Assembly (NCBI RefSeq): GCF_010015585.1
Contig: NW_022985074.1
Coordinates: 930,026-994,025, forward strand
Direction: 5' to 3'
From: Eremomyces bilateralis CBS 781.70
Lineage: Eukaryota > Ascomycota > Dothideomycetes > Eremomycetales > Eremomycetaceae
DNA length: 64,000 bases
Notes under the pieces: model-generated
The model's database searches: none
What the model was told of the DNA's origin: nothing
Seen by the model: only the letters and a program-made list of their open reading frames with translations
Shown here: positions 32,365 through 59,058 of the stretch, piece by piece
Position numbering within the stretch: position 1 is the first letter of the stretch
Layout of the letters: every line of letters starts with the position of its first letter
Position numbers and translations under genes: made by a program

Positions 32365-35300
32365 ATGGTCTCAATGTCTATGACTTCCAGCTCACAGGTT
32401 ATAAATGGGCATGGTTCCCTTGAGCGCCCTGCCAAAAGGACCAAAATCCATGTCAATGACAGCGATGGACCGAAGAGCTCTTATCCTGCCACTGGAAGAA
32501 TATTTGCGCCATTTCGAGTTCGTACTTGTTCCTTTATAAAATAATTTTACGATACTAACTGCCGCAGACAATAGGTCTAGTATCTCCTACATCGGTCCCG
32601 TTCACCTCCATTCCGCTCGGGAAAACGACGTTTCAAATCACCACTTCAACCGGAAACAGTCTCCAGACCTACGACTTGAGGAAAGGGCTCGCACTCCAAT
32701 TCATTACTCGACCTCGGACGCCTCAGCATATCACAACTTCGTTGGCATGGAAGGATCGAATATTCGCTGCATGGGGAGGAGACTCACCTGGGACCAGTCG
32801 AGGAATCTGGGTCTTCAAACGAGGGAAAAGAATACAAGAAGTGGATATCCCTGTCAAGTTCCAGGAAAACATCCGTCAGCTATGCATATTCGGTGACTGG
32901 ATGGTTGGATGCTGTGACACCACTATCGAAATCTGGACAATTGCAACTCTGGAACATTATACCTCCCTGACGTCCCCATATTCGGTTCAGGGTGGAGTAA
33001 GCTATACTGGCGGTATCTGCAATATGCCCACGTATGTGAACAAGATTTTTGCCGGGAAAACGGATGGGAGTGTGGAAATATGGAATGTCAAAAGCGGAAA
33101 ATTGCTGTACACCATACTGCCGGAAACCTCTGAACTCGGAGCGGTTACCATGATGGAGCCAACACCAACTCTGGGACTGATTGCCATTGGATATCAATCA
33201 GGGGCTATCGCCATCCACGATATCCACACCGACACTGGCCTAATGCTTTTAAGCACGGGTTCAAACACGGCACCGATTACGACCATTTCCTTCCGAAGTG
33301 ATGGGATCGGAGCTGGAGATGATGGGACGCTACCCGGAGTGATGGCAACGGCATCTAGTCAAAGCGGTGATGTCACACTCTGGGACCTGAACCAGGGTGG
33401 TCGGAGGAAGGGCGTTCTACGAGCGGCACATGGTTCACCAGATGCAGGGCGTGGCGTTCCTGGAGGCATCAGCAAACTCGAGTTTCTACAAGGTCAAGCA
33501 GTTATGGTGACAACCGGCCTGGACAATTCTCTCAAAACTTGGATCTTCGATGAAACGCCGTTCTCACCGATTCCTCGACCTCTCCATGCACGAAGCGGAC
33601 ACGCAGGTCCAGTCGCATGTCTCAACTTCCTTCCAACCCCAGCCGATGGCGCCGATGTTGAAGGAAAGTGGTTGATGAGTGCTGGAAAAGATCGTAGTTT
33701 GTGGGGATGGAGTCTCCGAAAAGATTCCCAGAGTGTGGAGCTAAGCCAAGGCAGCATCATCAAGAAGGCAAAAAAGCTTGGTGTCTCGGGAGGCCCATCC
33801 AACTCAAATTTACGCTTCGAAGATCTCAAGGCTCCACCGATCAGCTGTATGGCTTGTTCGCTGAACAGAGACGGAGGCATTGGTGCGATGCCTGGAACGA
33901 AGAATATATGGAACCTTCCAGGACAATCGAAAGGCAAGTCCAGCACAGCCGATAGCAGTTCGACGGGCTGGGAAAGTATTGTCACTGGACATGAGGGTGA
34001 CCGATTCGCAAGGACATGGTTTTGGGGGAGAAAGCGAGCCGGCCGATGGAAGTTTGAGACTGGTGACAAGTCTCCGGTTACTGCCGTGACGGTCTCGCCA
34101 TGTGGCACTTTTGCCTTGATTGGTTCTTCCAGTGGAGGCATTGACATGTTCAACCTCCAATCCGGCAGCCATAGAAGACGGTTTCCACCAAAATTGACAT
34201 CCACTCAAGCACAAAGGCTTGCTGCTCAAAGATCGTCGAACATAGCGAACGGTCGAAACCAGTATGAAAGAGGAGAAGGAAAGCATACCCAGGCGGTATC
34301 GGGAATCATTGTTGATCCTTTGAACCAAAAGGTCATCAGCTGCGGCTTGGATGGGAAGTTGAAATTCTGGGAATTCAGTACCGGCATTCTCCTTCATCAG
34401 ATGGAATGGGCATCTTCGATTCTGGCGATACGACACCAACCTGCCACCGACCTGATTGCCGTGAGCTGCAATGAGGCATGCATCAGAATCGTTGATTTTG
34501 AGACGAAGAAGACGATCCGAGAACTCCGGACTGCTGGGAATACAGTCCAAGATTTTTGTTTCTCCAACGATGCTCGCTGGCTGGTTGCTGCATGCTCGGA
34601 TTCAACGATTCGAATCTGGGATCTACCAACGGGTCATCTCATTGATGCTCTTAGAACACCCAGTCTGTGTCTTGCTCTTGCGTTCTCACCTACTGGGGAG
34701 TATCTCGCAACCGCGTTTGCAGACACTGTTGGGGTTGACGTTTGGACGAATCGGACATTGTTCACTCAAGTTCCAACACACCAGATTTCCGAGGATGAGA
34801 TCGCACGCATAGACGTGCCCAGTAGGTCTGGAGGTGTGGGTCTTCTTGAGTCTGCCTATCAACCACAGGAATCTGGCGAGGTGCCGTCCGGCGCTCAAGT
34901 CAACCTGGAGCAACTCAGTTCCGACTTGATGACATTGTCATTAGTGCCGAAACCCCGATGGCAGACATTGCTCAATCTTGATGTCATTCGAGAACGCAAT
35001 CGACCGAAGGAAGCACCAAAGCGTCCAGAGAAGGCTCCATTCTTCCTGCCTTCAATCACAGACACGAAAGCAGATGCCATGGCCATTGAACCTGTCCGTG
35101 ATTCTCGTATTGCTGGTGCGAACTTATCGGTCAAAGTTCGAGGAGCGGATCCGATTGCGAACATGCATGGCGTGCTTCTTTCAGCGCAGACTCAACAATT
35201 CGAAGATGCGTACATCGATGTGGTCTCGTGTCTTTCACAACTACCACCATCTGCAGCAGACGTGGCAATTCGGTCACTTTCTCCGTCGCCTCCGTACTCG

Positions 35301-35543
35301 GAGCTGACCACATTCGTGACTGTTCTTGATTGGAGACTCAAGCAACGAAAAGATTTTGAGCTGTGTCTTGTATGGATGCGAGTCTTCTTGCGGTGTCATG
35401 GAGCGGTGATTGCCGAAGAAGGTCCAGACACGGTACGCGAGACACTCAGGGAATGGATCGATACATTGGAAAAGGAGGACAATCGTGTCAGGGATTTGGT
35501 GTCATTTTGCAACGGGATCGGCAATTGGGTACGGGGTCCGTAG
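32365..35543 (+). CDS. UTP21: U3 snoRNA-associated protein UTP21 (WDR36 homolog)
   Basis: SSU processome subunit required for early 18S pre-rRNA processing in the nucleolus. Exons 32365-32517 and 32568-35543 join in frame at FAPFR-TIGLVSPTSV, giving 1042 aa. Multiple WD40 repeats form two beta-propellers through about residue 750, with family signatures such as LGLIAIGYQSGAIAIHDI, SAGKDRSLWGWSLR and WLVAACSDSTIRIWDLPTG. The C-terminal Utp21 domain begins around LSLVPKPRWQTLLNLDVIR and contains APFFLPS; this is what distinguishes UTP21 from other WD40 proteins. The start MVSMSMTSS was chosen because the frame gives the conserved N-terminal PAKRTKI and GRIFAPFR. Length fits fungal UTP21. Convergent with the RNPS1-like gene, 215 bp apart. 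Confidence 0.93.
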
Positions 35544-42487: not shown

Positions 42488-42671
42488 TGTCGGAAATCCA
42501 CGGCTATTACTTAGTCATTGCACCTTGTAGATTACATAAGATTACATAAGCTTGGGTATATATACCCGTCAAGGTAAACTATCTACTTCTGACCGAATAC
42601 AAGCATCTCACTGCCTCTGAACAGGTATCCTATTGTTTCTGTGATTGATTGACACGCCAAAACGATCAACA
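42488..42671 (+). mobile_element. LTR-like repeat, family A, copy 1 (fossil)
   Basis: A 184-bp unit beginning TGTCGGAA and ending ATCAACA (TG...CA ends), matching a second copy at 48442-48624 at about 95% identity in the same orientation. Short TG...CA units of this size are typical of fungal Copia-type LTRs; family is inferred. No matching target-site duplication flanks it. It contains a perfect palindromic TATA element at 42554-42567. Confidence 0.75.
42554..42567. promoter_or_regulatory. Palindromic TATA element in LTR-like repeat
   Basis: The sequence GGGTATATATACCC is a perfect palindrome with a TATATA core, placed about 220 bp before the start codon of the glutaminase gene and conserved in the second repeat copy. 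It could act as a core promoter; direction cannot be read from sequence. Confidence 0.5.
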
Positions 42672-42776: not shown

Positions 42777-44168
42777 ATGAAGTCTCCAATCCCCGACTAT
42801 CTTCGGCAGGTGGTAGAAAATGCGCGCCCAGCCGACTCCGGCGAGGTTGCCGGCTACATCGAAGTTCTGGCCAAAGCGGATGCCTCCAAAATGGCTGTGG
42901 CACTCGCGACGGTAGATGGGAAGATGTACTCGGCTGGAGACGACGAAGTGGAATTTTCTATCCAATCCATTTCCAAAGCCTTTGTTTATGCACTGGCAAT
43001 TCAAGATACGGGGTTGCCACAGGTCTTGGAAAAAGTTGGCGTTGAACCATCTGGCGATGCGTTCAACAAACTGTCGCTGCAACGCAGCACCAATCGGCCT
43101 ATGAACCCCATGATCAATGCTGGTGCTATCGCCACGCACTCGCTGATCGTGGGACCGAATGCTACGGCGGAGCAAAGAGTTGATCGTATATTAAAGGCAT
43201 TGTCCCGACTGGCAGGCCGGCAGTTGCGAGTGGACGAAGCCGTCTACGAGGCCGAGCTCAAGGACGCCAACCGCAATATGGGTCTAGGTTACATGCTCAA
43301 AGCAGCAGGTATCATAGATGGTGATCCACAGGAAGCCGTGCGCGGCTATATCCGCCAATGCTCCATCAACGTCAACGTACGCGACCTGGCCATGATGGCA
43401 TCAACCCTGTGCAATGCCGGTGTACACCCGGTCTCCGGAGAGGGGATCATCCCGCACCAGAGCGTCCGCCAAGTCCTGTCCGTCATGACCACCTGTGGCA
43501 TGTACGATGCCGCTGGGGACTGGGTCTCCAACATTGGCATACCCGCAAAGAGTGGTGTAGCTGGCGGTATCATCGGCGCCCTTCCTGGCCAAGTTGGCAT
43601 TGCTGTCTTTTCACCCAAACTGGACGAACGCGGCAACAGTGTACGAGGCGTCATCATGTGCGAGAAGCTCTCATCCGACATGGGCCTGCACATGATGGAT
43701 ATCAGTCAGGTTGCTAGAGCCACCGTGCGTACTTCGGCCATGACCATTACGGGCTGTGCCGATCAACCCCACGAATACGTACAGGAGGTGCCTATCTTTG
43801 ATCTACGCGGCGCAGTCCGTTTCGCGGGCGCAGAACGTCTTACCCGTGCTATTGTGCATGAGTTCTCCTCCTCGGATACTGAGGACCCCGGCTCGGGACG
43901 CTATACGAACGCTCGCGCGGTTATTTTATCGTTCAGAGACGCCTATTCTCTCAGCGATGTTGCCCAGCGAATCATACTTGAGAACATTCGTCGCCTACGG
44001 GCGGCAGGTAGAAATCTGGTGGTGGTCGATCCTACCAGGGTCCTCAAGCTGCATGGGGATCATGTACCCGAAGACAATGCCCTGCGTGTGGTCAGAGACC
44101 TAGCTGAGGCACGTCGCTACATTGGGGGTACGGGCTGCCGGGCTGTATCTTATAGTGATAGTTGGTGA
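42777..44168 (+). CDS. Bacterial-type glutaminase (GlsA family) with C-terminal STAS domain
   Basis: Hydrolyses glutamine to glutamate and ammonia. Intronless, 463 aa from MKSPIPDYLRQVVENARPAD; this is the only ATG start in frame. The beta-lactamase-like serine hydrolase domain (about residues 1-310) has the SxxK catalytic motif in FSIQSISKAF, NPMINAGAI, KDANRNMGLGYML, RDLAMMASTLCNAGVHPVSG and KSGVAGGIIGALPG. A STAS (sulphate transporter/anti-sigma antagonist) domain follows at about 340-445 (VPIFDLRGAVRFAGAERL...LVVVDPTRVL). This glutaminase-STAS fusion is known to me from bacteria, notably Actinobacteria. It is visibly more GC-rich than neighbours and lacks introns, consistent with horizontal transfer. 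The frame looks whole with no disruption. Its start is 105 bp beyond an LTR-like repeat. Confidence 0.88.
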   Translation: MKSPIPDYLRQVVENARPADSGEVAGYIEVLAKADASKMAVALATVDGKMYSAGDDEVEFSIQSISKAFVYALAIQDTGLPQVLEKVGVEPSGDAFNKLSLQRSTNRPMNPMINAGAIATHSLIVGPNATAEQRVDRILKALSRLAGRQLRVDEAVYEAELKDANRNMGLGYMLKAAGIIDGDPQEAVRGYIRQCSINVNVRDLAMMASTLCNAGVHPVSGEGIIPHQSVRQVLSVMTTCGMYDAAGDWVSNIGIPAKSGVAGGIIGALPGQVGIAVFSPKLDERGNSVRGVIMCEKLSSDMGLHMMDISQVARATVRTSAMTITGCADQPHEYVQEVPIFDLRGAVRFAGAERLTRAIVHEFSSSDTEDPGSGRYTNARAVILSFRDAYSLSDVAQRIILENIRRLRAAGRNLVVVDPTRVLKLHGDHVPEDNALRVVRDLAEARRYIGGTGCRAVSYSDSW

Positions 44169-44215: not shown

Positions 44216-44360
44216 CTTGTTGGATATCAACCATCCTCTAGTTACCTCAGCAAGCTCAGGCTATTTGTGGTCGTGCCTGAGGCGACTAACCACACTATAC
44301 CTAATCGATAAATGCAGTTCACGAACAAATAGCCTGAGGATCGGGCAGGATCCTGTCAAT
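44216..44360. repeat. Left arm of a 130-145-bp inverted repeat
   Basis: Starts CTTGTTGGATATCAACC and matches, inverted, the arm at 46366-46495; it has about 10 extra bases near its inner end. It contains an 80-bp palindrome-ended unit (44257-44336) with termini CAGGCTATTTG/CAAATAGCCTG. The shared flanks show that the arms are copies of one another, not two separate insertions. Confidence 0.8.
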
Positions 44361-44364
44361 GGTA

Positions 44365-45911
44365 CGGAAGTTCCCTTCAAAAGTTTTTGCCCACGCTAAA
44401 TACGCCACTTTCTTGGCAGTCCCACAATACCAGCCGAGGAATCCTAAGTACATCGAATCTGTCCTTCATCGCTCCTATTTTGAATCTTATCAAGTCTCTC
44501 TCACGTTACGAAATGCCTTCAAATACTGACACCGCAACACAGGCGCTCATTGTTACTCTTAAGTCACCTATTGGGGGAAAAACAACAGCTGAAATCGCTG
44601 AAAAAACGGGTCTTCCAAAGCGTACAATTAATGCTATTTATGCCCGTGCAATTGAGCGGGGATTTGACCCTAATCATCTGCCTCTGCATATTAGAGACGA
44701 ATGGCTAGAAGATGCACCCCGTCCCGGCCGGCCCAAAAAACAGACGGAGGAGCTATCGAATACCGTTCTTACCAAAGTGCGTCAGGATCGATATGGAAGG
44801 GAGAAGACTTGCGCTGATATCGCGGGCGAGCTTTGTAGAGGCGGTTGGATTGTCTCCGAGTCTACCATCTGGAGAGTGCTCAAGAAAGCCGGCTTCAACA
44901 AGACGAAGCCGACGAGGAAGCCTGGATTGACGAAGAAGATGAAAGCTGAACGGTTGAAGTTTGCGAAAGAGCACGAGCATTGGACACTGGAAGATTGGAA
45001 AAACGTTATTTGGAGTGACGAGACAGCTATCGTATTACTCCACCGGAGAGGTAGTTATCGAGTATGGAGGACGAAAGACGAAGCGCTTGCAAAGACCTGT
45101 ATCCGGGAGCGTTGGAAAGGATATACAGAATTAATGTTCTGGGCCTGCTTTACGTATGATAAGAAAGGCCCTTGCCATTGCTGGATGCCAGAAACGAAAC
45201 AGGAGAAAATCGATGCGGAAAAGGTATTAGAAGAGATGAACGACTTGCTTGAACCTATTCGTCGAGACCAGTGGGAACTTGAGACCGGTATGAGGAGGAT
45301 GGGACTCCGGAATCCCTCTAGAAAGCCAATCTGGAAATGGACGCAGAAGACAGGGAAACTAGTTCGACAGAAAGGAGAAGGAATCGACTGGTATCGATAT
45401 CAGACAAAGATATTAATTCCGAAGCTATTTCCTTTCGTAGAGGAATGTCTGAAGGATCGGCCAGACACGATTGTTCAAGAGGATAAAGCTCCGTCGCACG
45501 CCCATCATGCACAGCAACGAGTATACGATTTGTACGGAGTACAGCGACTTCTTTGGTGCGGGAATTCCCCAGATCTAAATGCTATCGAGCCATGTTGGCC
45601 ATACATGAAGAGAGCGACGACAAGAAAAGGTGCTCCAAAGAATAGGCATGAAGCCATTAAAGCCTGGGAAGCTTGCTGGGAAGGACTCCCGCAGGAGAAG
45701 GTACAGGCTTGGATTGAGCGGATTCCACGACATATTCAACAGATAATTGAGCTAGAAGGAGGAAACGAGTATAAGGAAGGGAGAGACCATACGAGAAAGG
45801 ACTGAGATAACGCGAATGGGGAGGACTTAGCCATTAGTACATGTATCCTAATTAGGAATGGTTTTATTACGGGGTCTTGGCGTGGGCAAGAACTTTTGAA
45901 GGGGTCCTCCG
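44365..45911 (+). mobile_element. Tc1/mariner DNA transposon, apparently complete
   Basis: 1547-bp element bounded by TA target duplications (44363-44364 and 45912-45913) and terminal inverted repeats of about 35 bp (left CGGAAGTTCCCTTCAAAAG, right end reads inverted CGGAGGACCCCTTCAAAAG). It carries one open transposase frame on the plus strand. It is nested between inverted repeat arms, so it landed in an older element. Confidence 0.93.
44513..45805 (+). CDS. Tc1/mariner transposase (DD34E)
   Basis: Cut-and-paste transposase of 430 aa from MPSNTDTATQALIVTLKSP; an upstream in-frame methionine at 44387 lies almost within the terminal repeat, so the inner start is preferred. The N-terminal part has paired helix-turn-helix regions (GGKTTAEIAEKTGLPKRTIN and CADIAGELCRGGWIVSESTI), separated by the AT-hook-like GRPKK linker. 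Catalytic residues: Asp in VIWSDET, Asp in VQEDKAPSHAH and Glu in NAIEPCW; 34 residues separate the last two, hence DD34E. No stops or frameshifts disrupt it, so the element may be active or recently active. Confidence 0.93.
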   Translation: MPSNTDTATQALIVTLKSPIGGKTTAEIAEKTGLPKRTINAIYARAIERGFDPNHLPLHIRDEWLEDAPRPGRPKKQTEELSNTVLTKVRQDRYGREKTCADIAGELCRGGWIVSESTIWRVLKKAGFNKTKPTRKPGLTKKMKAERLKFAKEHEHWTLEDWKNVIWSDETAIVLLHRRGSYRVWRTKDEALAKTCIRERWKGYTELMFWACFTYDKKGPCHCWMPETKQEKIDAEKVLEEMNDLLEPIRRDQWELETGMRRMGLRNPSRKPIWKWTQKTGKLVRQKGEGIDWYRYQTKILIPKLFPFVEECLKDRPDTIVQEDKAPSHAHHAQQRVYDLYGVQRLLWCGNSPDLNAIEPCWPYMKRATTRKGAPKNRHEAIKAWEACWEGLPQEKVQAWIERIPRHIQQIIELEGGNEYKEGRDHTRKD

Positions 45912-45913
45912 TA

Positions 45914-46365
45914 CACACTGACTGTTCGATATTTTCATGTGTTTTTCACGATTTTGGAAACCTCACTTTTGCATATTCTTCAATAACAACATGAAGACTT
46001 ATTATAATTGCACTTAAATCCACTGGGCTGTGCAGCAAGGTATACTTTATCTAGAATTTGAATCTTTTCTACTCCCCATGCTTGTGTCTCGCAAAAAACG
46101 CTGATATGTAAGAAGCCAGACTGCGTCAGAATCGTTAACCAACCACCGCAGTTCAAGCACCTCTGGAGACGTTGGGTTCAGTTGTACGCTGCGCCGAGAG
46201 GAGGTTCGATCTGACATCGTCCAAATTCCACTGGGTTGTCAAGAAACGATAGAGGATTCGATTGAACATGTCAATTTTACTGTGTGATAGCTCGTTGTGG
46301 AGGAAAACGAGGTTGAAGTGATTAAATTGCTCTCATACAAACGATCTTAACTCAGGCCAAAAATC
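45914..46365. other. Non-coding stretch between transposon and right inverted repeat
   Basis: About 450 bp with no coding frame of note; with the inverted arms it probably formed a roughly 0.73-kb non-autonomous element before the Tc1 insertion. Confidence 0.5.
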
Positions 46366-46495
46366 AATGACAGGATCCTCAGGCTATTTGGTAGAGAACC
46401 ATACCAATTAGGTATAGCGCGGTTCGTTGCCTCAGGCACTACCACAATGGCCTGAGCTTGCTGAGGTAACTAGAGGATGGTTGATATCCAACAAG
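46366..46495. repeat. Right arm of inverted repeat
   Basis: Inverted copy of 44216-44360, ending GATATCCAACAAG. Includes a 75-bp palindrome-ended unit at 46380-46454. It ends 12 bp before the stop codon of the minus-strand gene. Confidence 0.8.
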
Positions 46496-47878: not shown

Positions 47879-48441
47879 AGTTGATGAATCGTTGCTAGAA
47901 ATGAAAGCCGTCTCTAGTATTTCACTTGTCCTAATCCTACGGACTGGACTCCTGGAGCAATTCCGGTCAGTCCCATCCACAGTACTCAAATACACATAGC
48001 GAAGAGGAGTGATTAACGGTATATAGAAGCAGAGGAGGGCCAGGAAAGGCCTGACAAGTATATAGATGTAGAGCAGCTAACCGAGCTATTAGTAAGGTGC
48101 AGCGGTTCAGAGCAGAGGAAGCGGAAGCAGCTCTGACGGGAGCGGCTTGATTTCTGAAAGCGAAGGGCGGGAGCACCCTATTTATAGCTGTACACTGCCT
48201 GCCACTAGAGTAAGGCGGCTGGGACTGTCCATGAATTAACCAATCAGTCAACCAATTAATCAATCAATCACCTGAAGCACCGGGACACCTGAGAGACCGG
48301 AACACTTTTTATACTGACACCCGACGTACTATGACGTCCCCTGCACCCTATCCTCGCCAGACAGGACCCGTTCGTGGCGGTGCTCGTATATTCAACATGG
48401 ACGCTCGAATTCAAAAAGGGTCAGTTTCCTGGTGTCCCAAT
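47879..48441. other. Intergenic region before second LTR-like repeat
   Basis: About 560 bp. A TATTTATAG box at about 48179 on the plus strand reads as TATA on the minus strand and may serve the F-box-like gene. AATCAATC tandem units occur at 48235-48270. Nothing else seen. Confidence 0.45.
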
Positions 48442-48624
48442 TGTCGGAATCCGCGGCTATTACTTAGTCACCGCATCTTGTAGATTACATAAGATTACAT
48501 AAGCCTGGGTATATATACCCGTCAAGGTAAAATATGTACTTCTGACCGAATACAAGCATCTCACTGCCTCTGAATAGGTATCCTATTGTTTCCGTGATTG
48601 ATTGACACGCCAAAACGATCAACA
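48442..48624 (+). mobile_element. LTR-like repeat, family A, copy 2 (fossil)
   Basis: 183-bp partner of 42488-42671, same orientation, about 95% identical, with TG...CA ends and the same palindromic TATA. No target duplication matches its flanks or those of copy 1. The DNA between the copies has no retroelement coding sequence. Confidence 0.75.
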
Positions 48625-51032: not shown

Positions 51033-53526
51033 TTATAGGAGGCATATTGAAAAAGAATCCATCGTTGTTGGATTTATTTGCGTTATCAAATTAGTCAGTC
51101 TCGATAATCAGAGGGAAGTCTCGACCATTAGAGTCCGTCTTAACCATCCGAGCCAGACTCAACGATCGGACTCAGTCAGGCGCAAGGTCAGAATCCGGCA
51201 GTGTCTGCGGACGCGAAGTGGACGCCGCGGAGCGTGTAGTTTTATAGTTCGTTCCAATCATATCACAGGGGCTAAAGCGGGGGGGCCGATCGCGATGTCG
51301 ACGAAGGCGTGTCAACGACGGCTGTGGTTGAGGGGGACAAATCACGTGAAACTCACGTGAAAATCATGTGATTTAAGGTTGGGTTGTGATTTTGTGTCTG
51401 TCCCTCGTGCGTCCACAAGGACCTTACGGAACTACGTTCCTCCAGGCATACATCCAATACATCGCTCTTCTCTCTTATACGTGATCTTTGCTCGATTGGA
51501 GTATTCTCCACAGATAAGGTTTGGGGGAAATCTACTTTAAAGTGACCCGTTAAGGATGTCTACGAAGTCATATAACTTGATGAAGCCGGTAGCTCCATTA
51601 GAAATAATTCGAAGATGATTCCCAGCTAATCAGAGATAGCTCGCCATAATTCACAAAATAATGTTGTACTGCTGCGCTATTGTGCTAAGTTACTGTAAGG
51701 AAATCGTGGCGTGGATGAGAGGGTGGTGACGTTATCCCCGTTCGTGCTGTTGATGGAAACTGTTCCAGACATCACAGTCACCCTATCCTGTAATCACGGC
51801 TCCTGTAGTGCTTCTCCTATGAGGATGTTTTTGACACGAACTAAACATAATGGAACCGCATTCGCACTAAACACATTAAGATGTCTTTATCAACCACCAC
51901 GCCCATCACAAGTATGTCCTAACCGAAAATAGATGCGCTGATATCGGGTGAGACCAGAAATGGATTCGGGCGGCAGTTCGCCGGGACTCTGAGGTGTCCG
52001 GAAACGGATACGCTGATATCGGGTGGGCCTAGAAATGGACTACTCGAGGGAATTGCAAGGGCCTATTGCTGGAACTTTTTAGATCCACTTCTGGCTCCCA
52101 AAAATGGGGAAGCTTGTTGGACGATGTTTTGGGACAAAATCTGTACCCGACAGCAAGCAAGGAAACACAGTCTTGTTACATGACTGATATTGGCCTGATC
52201 CGTGTTATTATGCGCCGCCTCTCTAAAGGTTACCACTTGCGCTTCGTCTTGGTCTCGTTGCCGCAGTCCTCCTCATTACCGTATAGCTATTGTCGCCGGT
52301 GCCATTACCATCAGAGGCGTCCGAACTCTCGCCTCTCTCTGAATCGAAGGGTTGCTGATGAAACCGTCGGCACAAGCGATTGCGCAGTACTGTTGCAACT
52401 CCAAGCAGGGCCAAGGTAATATCCTTTGCTGCTCCCCGGCAACGCAAGAAATTCGCCAACCAGACTCCCGCAAATACAGCTTCAACCTCGTCTGCTTCGA
52501 GCGGAACGAGAAGCTCTGTGTTCTTTCCAGTTTTAGCACCCGAATTTGGCAGGCAGCTCATTCACCATCGCCGCGTTTGCGAGCGATTTGAAAGAGACGG
52601 ACACTTGCTGCGTCATGCGCCATGATGGTGCCTACTACCGCTGTCAGCTCTACTATGAAGCAAGAAAATAAGATATGGCCATAGAGTGCCCCTAGCGGAG
52701 CCCTCGAAGTTGAAACCCCCGACAACCTCAATGATCACTCCAGTGCAGTGGACGGGATTCAGTCTGTTAGCTTGTCGTCCTCTGATCTAAAAGAGAAGAG
52801 CCGGGACGCTTTCATACCAAATCCATCAATCTCCAAACCCCGGCTGTTGCTCCGTTTGATTGCGTTGGTTGACAGCTCTGCTCGGCCAGCCTCTGGCCGT
52901 TGGTCCTCTACAACACGGTTCGTCGCTTCAAACGTATTTACCTAATTACAAGCCTGACTGATCGGCATTTCTATCTAGAAAGAGCCTAGTACCGGTCATG
53001 CTTCTATAGAATGCTTATCAAATCTCTAAACTCCGACAATTTCAGCGGTAAGTTGCCGGCTTCGTTTCAATGCCTCAGCGATGACGGGTACGGTCTCGGA
53101 AGTGACCATAGAAAAGGGCAGCAAGATGGTTTTCTAATAAATCTATGCCAGTTCCCGCCGCTCGCCGAAAGTGCATTTCCTATTTCGGAGTTACCAGCCT
53201 CTGTGTGTAAACGGATCACCTCACCGCTACTGCGCTCTCCCTTTCGCTAGGCGACGGAATTAGTTATTCCAGAGATTTGGGCCGATAATTCAAATCAATA
53301 GAACAAACGGAGCAACGTGCAATCCCGTTTTTCACTCTGCTTCCGTTCAACACTTTGGGAGGCTAATCATGAATCTAGCTTGTAACCCTATGATATAAAG
53401 GTCACCTGCTGGAAGGAAGACCAATTCTCATGGCGTAAATGGGAGCTTTCATGATTCTTAGCCGTTGACCTAATCGGCCTCGTTTTCCCTGATCAGTTTC
53501 CACATTTGGTTTTCAATCACCCCAAC
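51033..53526. other. Long repeat-poor non-coding region
   Basis: About 2.5 kb. It contains a 75-bp-period direct duplication at 51933-52041 and a cluster of CACGTGA motifs at 51340-51372. Open frames in 52060-52950 have no recognisable domain. Some of this may be further transposon debris. Confidence 0.4.
51933..52041. repeat. Short direct duplication
   Basis: Two 34-bp copies of GATGCGCTGATATCGGGTG-type sequence at 51933 and 52008, 75 bp apart, about 85% identical. Confidence 0.7.
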
Positions 53527-55805
53527 ATGACGGGCCCAGGGTCAAAAATCAGCGGTATAGCCGATCCGGCGCTCCTGAACAAAGTTGACAAACTGTTTGC
53601 GAGCGGAGTTGGAGAATACGTATCTCTTCCGCAGATTGTAGCCGTCGGAGACCAGTCCAGCGGTAAAAGTTCTGTTCTTGAAGCATTAACCGGCCTGCCT
53701 TTCCCAAGGGACAGTGATCTCTGCACCCGGTTCGCGACGCAGATCAGGTTCTGCCGGGCACCAAAACCGGAGATTTCGATCTCCATCATTCCGGCCAGTG
53801 GTAGTAGCGGGGAGCACGTCGAAGCATGCACCGCCTGGTCAAAGTCCGGCCTCGAGGACCTGGACCCAGAAACATTCTCTAGCATCATGAGAGAGGTTCG
53901 CATATCCATCTGGGTTCTATCCACGGCTAACGTCTTTAGGCACATACAATTATGGGAATCGATGGCGGAATCACCTTCTCCGACGACGTGCTCCGCATTG
54001 AAATATACGGGCCGGATCAAGAGCACTTTTCGGTTGTTGATGTCCCCGGAATCTTCAGAAAGACCACCGAAGGGGTCACGACCAAAGCGGACAAGAAAAA
54101 GGTCGAAGCGATGGTCCGGCGATATATGGAGAATCCCCGGTCTATCATTCTGGCGGTCGTTCCTGCCAATGTGGACATTGCAACACAAGAGATCCTGACA
54201 ATGGCCGAGGAGGTGGATCCAGATGGACACAGGACACTTGGGGTCCTGACCAAGCCAGACTTGGTCGACAGAGGGGCTGAATCGGCGTTGATTTCCCTTG
54301 TTGAGGGCAAAAGGCACAAACTGACCTTAGGATGGTGCATTGTTCGCAATCCTGGACAAAGTCAGCTCGAGAATTCATCTGTCAACCGAGAAGCAATTGA
54401 GACGGCCTTCTTCCAGGACAACCTTCCTTGGAACACTCTTGAGAAGGACAGAGTTGGCATCAGTTCTTTGCGGCTTCGACTGCAGGAGATCCTCGCCAGT
54501 AACATCCGTCGCGAGTTTCCAAAGGTGCGTCGAGCCCCCGGCGTTCTGAAGCGATGCTAATCCTGCCGCAGGTCAAATATGAGATCCATAAGAAGCTCAA
54601 TGCCCGCAGAAAGCTTCTCGACAACCTGGGCGCAAAAAGAGAAACGGCGGACGAACAGCGTCAATACCTTTTGGGTATAAGTGAACGGTTCCAAAAATTC
54701 GTGATGTCCGCACTCTCCGCAGATTACGTGGGCGATGATTGGTTTGATAAGTTCCCAAACCTTCGTTTCGCTACTGCGGTTGTGAACCGCAATGAGGCTC
54801 TCGCGAAAATGCTGGCACAATACGGTCACTCGTATATTTTCGACAGAGAACGACGCGTCAGCGCAGAGGACGGAGATCAATGCGACAGCTCAGAGGACGG
54901 AGATGAAAATGACGAAGAAATCGAACGGCAAATTTCAGTCCGAGCCCAGGAGGACCCCGAGGGCTTGGACGAGCTGCCGCCCGGAGAGAACACGATAGTC
55001 AGCCAAACTCCTCGGGGTATTTTTAAGTGGCTATCAAGAGTCTACGAGACGTCGCGTGGTTTTGAGCTCGGTACCTTTGATGGTTCACTTCTTGCTATGA
55101 CGATGAAGACTCAGTCGTCTAAATGGGAGCCAATCGCCGTCGGTTACATCAATGATATCATCAGTATGGCGCATACGTTCGTCCGAGACTTATTGCATCT
55201 GGTCTGCCCGAATCTCCGCGTGTGGGAAGGTCTCATGTCGGTCCTCATGGATGAGCTCTTGGCGAAGTATAAAGCTGCGCTCGGCTATGTCCGTTTCCTC
55301 CTCCATGTCGAGAGGACCGGAACGCCAGCGACTCTGAATCACTACTTCGCCGATAACCTGGAAAAGTGGTAAGTCTATACATCCCGTTTTTGCATCAGCC
55401 GCTTATGATTTTACCAGCCGCCAAAAGCGCATTCGCGCCGATCTGCAAGAGAAAACCTTCGCCGATTGCAGCCACGGCGAAGTTGTCCGCCTCGAAGACA
55501 TTGTGCAGAACCATCACACGTCTAATGTCGAGCATGTCGTCCAAGAGATCCATGACATCCTCGAATCCTACTATAAAGTCGCTCGTAAGCGCTTCGCGGA
55601 TAATCTGTGCATGCAAGCAGCGGACTACCACCTCGTGACAGGGCCTTGCTCCCCGCTGAGATTCTTTGGCACGGCTTTCGTGAGCAACCTGTCCGAAGAA
55701 CAATTGATGGATATCGCCGGGGAAGATGCCGCCTCACGAACGAAGCGTGCTGCTCTGACCAAGGAGATTGCAGATCTTGAAGCCGGAAAGAAAATCGTAT
55801 CCTAA
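53527..55805 (+). CDS. Mx-like dynamin-family GTPase
   Basis: Large GTPase of the fungal Mx/dynamin-like group. Exons 53527-53895, 53940-54524, 54572-55368 and 55418-55805 join in frame (introns 44, 47 and 49 nt), giving 712 aa from MTGPGSKISGIADPALL. GTPase motifs: G1 VAVGDQSSGKSSVLEALTG, G3 VVDVPGIF and G4 VLTKPDLVD; switch I region around LCTRFATQIRF. A helical stalk follows (residues ~310-600), interrupted by an acidic run SEDGDENDEEIE, and a GED-like C-terminus (HHTSNVEHVVQEIHDILESY, KRFADNLCMQAADYHLV). There is no PH or transmembrane segment. Such genes are common in variable regions of filamentous fungal genomes; cellular role here unknown. The stretch looks intact. The first ATG in frame was chosen; upstream frame lacks ATG. 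Confidence 0.88.
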
Positions 55806-56225
55806 TTTTGGACTGCATGTACTGTAGCAAGGCAGTTCGGTGTTTGAGTACTCCGTAAGTTAGCATTAGTTATCCCTTCTTTTGGTAGTTTTTGCTTGGA
55901 TGGACCGCCTGTTGTGAATGGCGCATATTTAGCCAATCATTTGTAGCAGACTATCTTCCCCGCTCTCCGCCAACCGGTCACGACTTCCTTGCTCCTGCAC
56001 AGTTTGTATTGACATGTTCCGGTGCAATGTCAGTTCTAGTTGAACCAAACCTACCACGCTCTGGTTTAGTACACCATAACGGGCGCCTTGCAGATTAAAG
56101 ATAAAGGAGTGGCATCCAATGGCAGCTATCCACGTTACTCATTACCCTTATATTTCCAATTTATACAAGACATTTAGCTGGCAATCCTTTCGCAGTGCTT
56201 CTCACGACCATTTCCTTCATTTGCC
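55806..56225. other. Intergenic region between dynamin and coiled-coil genes
   Basis: 420 bp separating two same-strand genes. No feature recognised beyond presumed promoter sequence. Confidence 0.5.
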
Positions 56226-57558
56226 ATGTCTAGTCAACCCGCAATATCACCAAAGTTTCTAGAACGCTGGAAAGATGTTCATAATGCTGTCACCACATTC
56301 TCCCAAGTTGCAAAGTCGTTAAATGAGGTCGAAGAGGTTATGATCGAGAGGAGAACACTGGGTGATCAAGTAAAGCGGCTGGAGACGGAAAGGTCCGAGA
56401 GTGCTGGGGAGGTCGCCTCTCTTAAAACAACACATACCGTCCTGATCCAGCAATTTGAGTTAAGGTACAATAGCTGGGAGCTTGAACGCAAGGAATTACG
56501 AGAGCAATACGAAGACGGGAAGCGAAAAGGCCAGCAAGAGCTTGATGATATTAAAAGAGAATTAGCTGCAAGGGAAGGCCAGCTTCGAACCGCGCAGTCT
56601 AGTATAGTAGAGAAGGATGTAAAAATTCTAGGTTTGGAGAGGAGCCTACATGAGGCACTGAACGAACTACGAGATATTAGAGGCGCTATCGGGTTAATAG
56701 ATCTGGACGAGAGTTTGTCAGTATCGGACTCCCACGATATGCGCATTTACTAACGTTAGGGGTTGGCAGTTCCGGCCAACTTTCGGAGATATCGAGCACG
56801 CTGCGGGCGATAGCGCAAGATTTTTTCTTTACAACCCTTCCAGAGAAAAATATGGTACGCGAACCCTTTATGTGATATCTTTAACTAACCTCGTCAAGGA
56901 TACACTGTATCGCCAGCTTCGACAATCTCGTTTCATTGCTCGTCCATTCGTGATACCAATATCTAACAGCATTCCTTCTCAGCACCTCAGGATGGTCGCC
57001 GCACAAGCTCTTATTGCCCGGCAACTTTCAAACAAGATCTTTCGCACTATCCACGTTTCAGAGTCTCCCACACCCCGAGACTTGGACAAGATGTCGACCG
57101 AGTACCCCCTACGTGGCACGGTGTTTCGTGCTATGCACGCGACTGCATTTAATGAACAAGAGAAAGAGCTGATAGACAACGATATTGAAGAAATCACAGA
57201 CAATCTCATTAGAAGTACTCAACCTCTTGTTTCTGACAGCGAAAACCTTAAAATGAGGCTTCGAAAGCTTTTCAAGGATGCGTTATGGCTTTGGCAATAC
57301 GCGAGAAGAAACATAGAGAGAGTCTATTGCTCTATAGACAGTGTAAACTGGAACCATTGCGAAGAGTATCAGAGTCCCACCATTACCAAAGAACGCGACT
57401 TACCAAAGGTGCGGACTTCTGATATAGTTTTGTTCCCTTGCATACATTTGCGGTCAGGTCGCAAGCCTTTCCATCCTGGCTATGTTCTTCGGTCTGACAA
57501 TCCTCTTCTGATGCTAGGTGCGATAGAGGCTACGGAGCAGGATTCTCATGTATCGTGA
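56226..57558 (+). CDS. Coiled-coil protein of unknown function
   Basis: Exons 56226-56716 and 56760-57558 give 429 aa from MSSQPAISPKFLERWKDVHN. The 43-nt intron has a GTCAGT donor, a perfect TACTAAC branch sequence and a GTTAG acceptor; splicing joins DESL to GWQFRPTFGDIEHAAGD, so two apparently separate frames are one gene. Residues ~40-150 form a long heptad coiled coil (VEEVMIERRTLGDQVKRLET, IKRELAAREGQLRTAQSSI). The C-terminal 260 residues look helical and folded, with ARFFLYNPSREKYGTRTLYV and TAFNEQEKELIDNDIEEITD. No catalytic motif recognised. It lies 420 bp downstream of the dynamin gene in the same direction. Confidence 0.72.
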
Positions 57559-57774
57559 TCTCCTTTGGGCACACAGGGTAAGGGAAAGTTAAGACTAGCT
57601 TCGAGGGCATATTCAAGGGACAATGCAGCTTTGGCCAGACATCTATTATGTATTTATCTACTATTCTAGGCTCTCCGTTTCAGGGTAACAGTATGTAAAC
57701 GTCGGCTCCGAGATACACTTTAAGAGCCATGCAGCGCAGGTTCACAATATATCCTTCTGGATATCACTGTCTCA

Positions 57775-57962
57775 TGTCATGGGCCCAAACCACGAAGGAT
57801 TTGGTAAGCTGGTAACGCTGTTGAATTGCTAAAGAGAGAAGGAGAAGATCTCTCTTACTGCGATCTGCTATTTACATCTGTGGGCAAACGGTCTACCCAT
57901 CCCTTCTGCCTTAGGCTGCAAGGCCACAACACACAGACTGGGCGAAGCCCAAGACTGTCACA
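57775..57962 (+). mobile_element. Solo LTR, family B, copy 1 (fossil)
   Basis: A 188-bp TG...CA unit (TGTCATGGGCCCAAACC... ending GACTGTCACA) flanked by a perfect 5-bp target duplication TCTCA. Only this copy shows the duplication, so it marks the true element ends. High identity to copies at 61096 and 63569 suggests fairly recent activity. Size suggests a Copia-type element. Confidence 0.85.
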
Positions 57963-59058
57963 TCTCATCCACATATGTCAAAGAAAATGAGACTTGCACG
58001 TCCGCGTTTAGGTCGCACGACAATCAAGTCTTGCCGCTTCTAGATGATTTATAACTGTTGCATCAACTACTCCAGATCTTAACTTGAAGGGCAGTTGACG
58101 AGGATAAGAATCGGATAATTAAACCTTGGGGGACTGGCCGTCCAGGGGCAGCGGGGTAAAGGATGTGTTCCGAAATCCATTAACCTAACAACCAGTTTCC
58201 TGGATTCTGAAAATGGTAATTTACAGACTCCTATTTATTTCATTTATTTCTTACATCCACCCTAGCCATGCGGTCGCGTCCTACAGTGACGAGCAGAGTC
58301 GGTTTCCAGTTTTACGCTTCAATATGATCTCGACGTACTGTCGCATTACGCGGGGGTGATGATTAAGCAAGTTCGCTGCTTAAGCTCAGTTACCGTACTG
58401 TATAGACACAACGCATGTTGATATTGACGATTCCCATTGTATCCCCGAGTGTGTTTTCGCTAGCTAAACCGTTGAAAATAGGTGTGATGGATCAGAGGTC
58501 CGCAGACCTGGATGCCTTGTGGCCTTGTGGCCCGTTTGCTCTGTAAACACCAGAACAGATAAACGCCTCGCACACCTTAGATAGATTCCTCCTTCATAGC
58601 AACAATTCAATGTTTGCCTCACGATTGGAGATTCCCGACAGTGAGACTCTTACAATAGGCAAATACATAGGAGAAGAGTGAGCAGTCCTAAATAGGCTTA
58701 GCCTAGGGGTAATGGGCAGAGAAAGGAATATTGCGTGGTAGTAGAAACGAACAGGGACATCCTGCGACACATACAGTCCTCCTGGCAAGGGATACGCATC
58801 CTATTTCGTATTAGTGCATTGCAGGGTGAGACTGCGCCATCCGCTGCGCCATGAGCTCTTTTGCACCTTCACACCAGTCCTTGTGTGGACGATGCCAACA
58901 GGTAATAGAACCAATAATGTGGAAGCTGCGTTTTCCCTTTTTCATCACACTATCCCCCCACGTAGTACCAGTAATTATATCCTTTCGCTGAAGATATTCT
59001 TGAGAGAACTCAATCCCCCTAGCGACTTACGTTCGGTTCTTTAAAACCTACCCTCGCT
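57963..59058. other. Intergenic region before HET-NACHT gene
   Basis: About 1.1 kb. No gene, RNA gene or repeat recognised. Confidence 0.5.

Follow-up and report, generated by a model that had tools for sequence, protein, structure and literature searches.

Among described fungal enzymes, the closest by kind is the type IV glutaminase (Gls) of koji moulds. According to a koji review (PMC8399179), this enzyme is an intracellular homologue of bacterial glutaminase and the sole salt-tolerant one among four glutaminases important for soy sauce. That review describes a further drop in soy sauce glutamate on disruption of type IV Gls, with a contribution that is thought to be low, and the type IV Gls of Aspergillus sojae is likewise presented there as a fungal homologue of bacterial glutaminase (PMC8399179). 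The likeness drawn here to the koji enzymes is one of kind, as the trees contained no rows named A. oryzae or A. sojae. With respect to solved structures, the nearest by sequence was the Micrococcus glutaminase 3agd (E 1.6e-111). This enzyme, Mglu (PDB 3agd, 3if5), has a domain order identical to that of the protein reported here from Eremomyces bilateralis, matches its sequence across both domains and has the same C-terminal fold. It differs in that Mglu, at 456 residues, is without the C-terminal [IV]GGxxC tail present in the fungal and Luteimonas proteins, because its chain stops 5 residues past the end of the alignment (query residue 426).

The window analyzed was a stretch of 64,000 nucleotides from the genome of E. 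bilateralis, a Dothideomycete (C8:930026-994025); its Utp21 ORF matched the protein of strain CBS 781.70, encoded on a contig of 997,570 bases, with 100% identity. An intact, intronless open reading frame on the forward strand (42777-44168) encodes a Micrococcus-type glutaminase of 463 aa, composed of a GlsA and a STAS domain; the initial annotation had described an undamaged intronless GlsA-STAS frame, and this was borne out. The catalytic domain (PF04960, residues 22-306; 42840-43694, forward strand) was identified by profile match with a score of 382 bits against a cut-off of 27, and the protein also exceeded the cut-off of NF002134 (566.2 versus 557 bits). Seven conserved residues, Ser64, Lys67, Asn114, Glu160, Asn167, Tyr191 and Tyr243, whose catalytic roles we assume from glutaminase structures, were invariant in 236/236 aligned rows (150 fungal, 8 Luteimonas-type and 78 other bacterial). 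The C-terminal STAS-fold domain (residues 310-463; 43704-44165, forward strand) ends with the [IV]GGxxC motif common to Luteimonas. No recency can be read from the lack of introns, because a relative also of 463 aa (P0011) lies on a contig of 1428 bases, which leaves no room for an intron; this contig may be a transcript, which would weaken the argument. A PF04960 profile search of the Eremomyces genome gave a single match, the glutaminase itself, and found no second GlsA gene. GtaA-type glutaminase matches were obtained at two other loci. The Eremomyces protein is a new member of an already known kind of enzyme, and the enzyme itself is ordinary. It is predicted to convert L-glutamine to L-glutamate and ammonia through a Ser64-Lys67 beta-lactamase-like active site and, by analogy with koji Gls, is expected to be a working intracellular enzyme. 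A role of the STAS-fold tail in assembly or stability would be a guess.

A protein search produced 7989 significant matches, the best 120 of which, leaving out the entry of the window itself, had identities of 64-80% over nearly the full length. All rows with a species name among these 120 were ascomycetes, and the best 120 homologues formed a single large fungal clade of proteins with equal length and domain order. In both the best 120 matches and the trees, the nearest relatives of the Eremomyces glutaminase were therefore fungal and not bacterial. Rows lacking a species name were classed as fungal or Luteimonas-type by their position in the tree, and the fungal classes of named rows are those we presume from the names. 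The fungi formed one clade with a branch support of 99 in a 235-row tree, 100/99 in an 87-row tree, 99/100 in a 40-row tree with short-branched outgroups and two further Luteimonas loci, and 100/98 in a 44-row tree of the catalytic part. A truncated Propionibacteriales locus (L052), omitted from the 235-row (of 236), 87-row and 40-row trees, was restored in the catalytic-part tree together with six added gammaproteobacterial rows. Fungal monophyly was recovered in all 200 bootstrap trees of the 87-row, 40-row and 44-row analyses. As the fungal clade as a whole was nested among bacteria, the family seems to be of bacterial ancestry; it would most simply have entered the filamentous ascomycetes once and long ago, and the gene may afterwards have been repeatedly moved or lost among fungi. 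Of the bacterial origin proposed by the initial annotation, the ancestry of the family is thus retained, but a lineage-specific acquisition from bacteria by Eremomyces is not. The annotation had also named a broad, vertically inherited fungal clade sharing the STAS domain as evidence that would speak against transfer; the gene does lie inside such a clade, with shared domain order, but its inheritance there does not look vertical. Among the papers listed in a literature search of limited coverage, none dealt with an origin of the fungal type IV enzyme by transfer or with a connection to Luteimonas.

Within the fungi, the Eremomyces copy belongs to a 17-row clade (support 100/98, 87-row tree) with F. 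nematophilum, Geosmithia morbida, A. arachidicola, A. caelatus, A. bertholletiae and A. pseudonomiae as named members, and this position conflicts with the fungal classes. Phialemonium was just outside the clade, and the exact sister of the Eremomyces copy was weakly supported (81/38, 87-row tree). The remaining 11 Dothideomycete rows were located in main clade B, in two separate places. Forcing the Eremomyces copy into clade B was rejected by the AU test with p 0.0137, a value that is optimistic because clade B was named after the tree was seen. Grouping it with the 11 other Dothideomycete rows was rejected with p 0.00015, a result which partly tests those other rows because they form no single clade. 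With class labels as we take them to be (24 Sordariomycete, 12 Dothideomycete and 6 Eurotiomycete rows), the tree needed 6 label changes, or 5 without Eremomyces, compared with a minimum of 2.

Identity and branch length were also compared. The Eremomyces and F. nematophilum glutaminases were 81.4% identical, and Dothideomycete-Sordariomycete pairs of clade B had a mean identity of 73.1% (range 65.7-86.7, n=348); an identity of 81% would not by itself establish transfer, because such inter-class pairs reach 86.7%. In a control tree of Utp21, built from 40 of the best 120 matches and the sole control gene for the rate argument, Eremomyces was placed among the Dothideomycetes (support 100), with its end branch measuring 1.0, where the median of the 40 fungi is 0.16. 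The branch of the Eremomyces glutaminase was 0.17-0.20 in the 87- and 40-row trees. Eremomyces Utp21 (window 32559-35543) appears to represent an unusually fast lineage or gene. An unstable position of Eremomyces is also reported in a phylogenomic paper (PMC7325674). Taken together, the clade, AU tests, class changes, identity and branch length favor a late arrival from another fungus; transfer between fungi is the most probable immediate origin of the Eremomyces copy, with direction and donors being putative. The single copy would stem from a different ascomycete, one placed close to the F. nematophilum and Aspergillus group of the tree, and would have been kept in surroundings rich in transposons, some 23 kb short of the end of the contig. 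On the combined evidence we consider it probable that the gene encodes a working intracellular glutaminase, that its family is of bacterial derivation and has been moved or lost among fungi, and that Eremomyces obtained its copy from another ascomycete.

The same tree can be read without any inter-fungal transfer, if an early filamentous ascomycete already carried two or more copies corresponding to clades A and B and these were later lost unevenly, with Eremomyces retaining A and the other sampled Dothideomycetes retaining B. Clades A and B are indeed well separated in the 235- and 87-row trees, and Aspergillus, F. nematophilum and Geosmithia are found in A, with other Eurotiomycetes and Hypocreales in B. 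Cephalotrichum gorgonifer has two copies (P0264 and P0268), though both are in one other clade. This history would however require many losses, and F. nematophilum is about equally close to Eremomyces and to A. arachidicola (79.7%) despite the long Utp21 branch of Eremomyces. Old paralogues with losses are thus a possible but doubtful explanation. Elsewhere in clade B of the 87-row tree, Verticillium dahliae was found with Cladosporium and other Dothideomycetes (97/65), and a weakly supported separation of Colletotrichum plurivorum from C. karsti was seen; these placements are signs of further exchange or of hidden paralogy.

To return to the family as a whole, the closest bacterial proteins in a GTDB scan, of which the best 80 loci were kept, were those of Luteimonas kalidii and L. 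abyssi at 61% identity, and the other full-length bacterial loci among these 80 had at most 53%. The donor named in the initial annotation was an actinobacterium, and this was not supported, since Luteimonas, a member of the Gammaproteobacteria (about 61%), is nearer than Actinobacteria (at most 53%, full length). Over the catalytic part, named Luteimonas proteins were 67-70% identical, compared with 60% for the truncated L052, which was placed among other bacteria and outside the fungi in the catalytic-part tree. When the L. kalidii protein was used as query, only 6 of the best 120 matches ranked above the first fungus, two of them named Luteimonas, and these six were followed by Phialemonium (65%) and Lomentospora (64%). 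The C-terminal [IV]GGxxC motif was found in 142/150 fungal and 8/8 Luteimonas-type rows, and in 0/77 of the other bacterial rows in which the C-terminal part is present. The Luteimonas GlsA-STAS proteins (L. kalidii, L. abyssi, L. salinisoli) accordingly resemble the Eremomyces protein in near full length, about 61% identity and a common motif. They differ in being bacterial and patchy within their genus, with a gene GC of 70% (two measured).

In the 235-, 87- and 40-row trees the Luteimonas-type rows formed a grade directly beneath the fungi, with its two nodes supported at 99/91 and 99/91 (87-row) or at 90/89 and 91/86 (40-row). With the catalytic part alone (44 rows), only P0244/P0246 joined the fungi, and weakly (82/74). 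These were the rows nearest the fungi in the 87-, 40- and 44-row trees; like P0242 and P0243, they are classed as Luteimonas-type or fungal by tree position only. Luteimonas as one clade was not rejected by AU tests (p 0.106 and 0.2), nor was a Luteimonas-Microascales grouping (p 0.084 and 0.173) or, in the 40-row analysis, one of Luteimonas with the other fungi (p 0.116). In this sample the link between fungi and Luteimonas is firm. Because of the non-rejections (p 0.08 to 0.20) and the weak grade in the catalytic part, however, a transfer from bacteria to fungi is the favored direction of this step, not a proven one.

The fused glutaminase was present in 8/52 Luteimonas genomes (loci L098, L099, L102, L103, L123-L126 and L134-L137), and seven of the eight copies shared 92% or more identity with the protein of L. 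kalidii. In a sample of the family, 3/198 genomes had the gene, counting the query's own, and 4 further matches were of 38-42%. In a sample of the class, 8/369 genomes had matches, which besides the query's own were at most 52% identical, over the catalytic part. When 1.5-kb flanks of the eight copies were compared, just 2/28 pairs had more than 250 bases in common, and a 19.5-kb Luteimonas region compared with three others gave one 54% match and otherwise no clearly identical neighbor gene. The gene was thus mostly in unlike genomic surroundings across Luteimonas.

This rarity and the unlike flanks would fit a reverse step, with a filamentous ascomycete, perhaps one close to Microascales, as the source of the Luteimonas GlsA-STAS gene and a different, unsampled bacterium as that of the fungal family; the AU tests leave the Luteimonas and Microascales grouping standing. 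The best full-length trees, however, nest the fungi within the Luteimonas-type grade with a bootstrap of 99 or 90-91, and the fungi remained one clade in 200/200 bootstrap trees, and we regard the reverse step as unlikely. A broader trade of GlsA-STAS, in which filamentous ascomycetes and Luteimonas may each have acted as donor and a transfer from fungus to Luteimonas left the gene at different genomic sites in different species, may be imagined and is rather unlikely.

Turning from the family to its setting in Eremomyces, the glutaminase was found to have a solo LTR-like repeat on one side and a nested DNA transposon on the other, which confirms the transposon-rich surroundings noted in the initial annotation. 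The LTR-like repeat (42488-42671, forward strand) is 184 bp long, has TG...CA ends and stops 105 bases short of the ATG of the glutaminase gene, for which it could provide a promoter. At least 31 other whole or partial matches to it were present in the genome. Two copies on contig C43, both in the same orientation, were separated by 5.2 kb and bordered by a GAGGA duplication of 5 bases, an arrangement expected of a complete LTR retrotransposon; no matching duplication was found around the copy near the glutaminase. A further copy was observed inside the window at 48441-48624. On the other side, 47 bases past the stop codon, begins a DNA element (44216-46495) with terminal inverted repeats of 50 nt (98%; 44216-44265 and 46446-46495), the end sequence of which was matched elsewhere in the genome 13 times in whole and 3 times in part. 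Nested within it is a TA-flanked Tc1/mariner-like element (44365-45911, forward strand) that recurs full-length in the genome at 99% and 92% identity. Its transposase ORF (44387-45805) matched HTH_Tnp_Tc3_2 above the cut-off and DDE_3 below the cut-off. The adjoining DNA element does not carry the glutaminase, because its inverted repeats leave the gene outside, and cargo of this transposon was ruled out.

Some 23 kb separate the end of the glutaminase from that of the contig; as a search of the whole assembly gave no exact four-fold TTAGGG array, a subtelomeric position would be speculative. Near the contig end (window 53455-62841), dynamin-like, NACHT-type (NPHP3_N) and phosphorylase-domain ORFs were observed in a run, and such runs are typical of fungal NLR neighborhoods. 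NACHT-type genes are also common cargo of Starship giant transposons. The glutaminase as Starship cargo moving between fungi would be in keeping with the NACHT-type gene about 15 kb away and with DUF3435 captain-type matches on other contigs of the genome. None of the 49 DUF3435 matches of the genome was on the glutaminase contig, whose end may not be fully assembled, and this origin is considered very unlikely.

With respect to composition, the glutaminase ORF had a GC of 55.8% and a GC3 of 59.1%, compared with 46.3-52.6% and 45.8-57.7% for nine conserved comparison ORFs and with a GC of 70% for the Luteimonas glutaminase gene (two measured). Among 15 other in-frame ORFs, 1 exceeded its GC and 2 its GC3 (0.591). 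In synonymous codon use it departed furthest from the typical pattern among these ORFs, with a mean log-probability of -1.265 against -1.249 to -1.117 for the nine conserved ORFs. The composition hints at a different history and provides no argument for a recent bacterial source; the slightly raised GC3 and the atypical codon use are what still speaks for the initial annotation. Direct, recent acquisition by Eremomyces from an actinobacterium is practically untenable: an intronless gene with slightly high GC3 and the least typical codon use would fit it, as would the actinobacterial majority of the best 80 bacterial loci, but full-length Actinobacteria reach at most 53% identity versus 64-80% for fungi (best 120 of 7989 matches), and the 235-, 87-, 40- and 44-row trees put the gene deep inside the fungi and rule this origin out.

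A recent re-inspection called interkingdom transfer in Pezizomycotina extraordinary and warned that added homologues can turn apparent interkingdom transfers into vertical cases (PMC11898892). This warning can usefully be tested on the glutaminase family, whose fungal clade is strongly supported. Luteimonas is an unusual candidate partner lineage for fungal gene exchange, and the glutaminase is moderately interesting as a transfer-prone gene. At this locus, E. bilateralis offers a concrete case in which a metabolic gene that seems to be bacterial-derived became a fungal family and then apparently kept moving among fungi.
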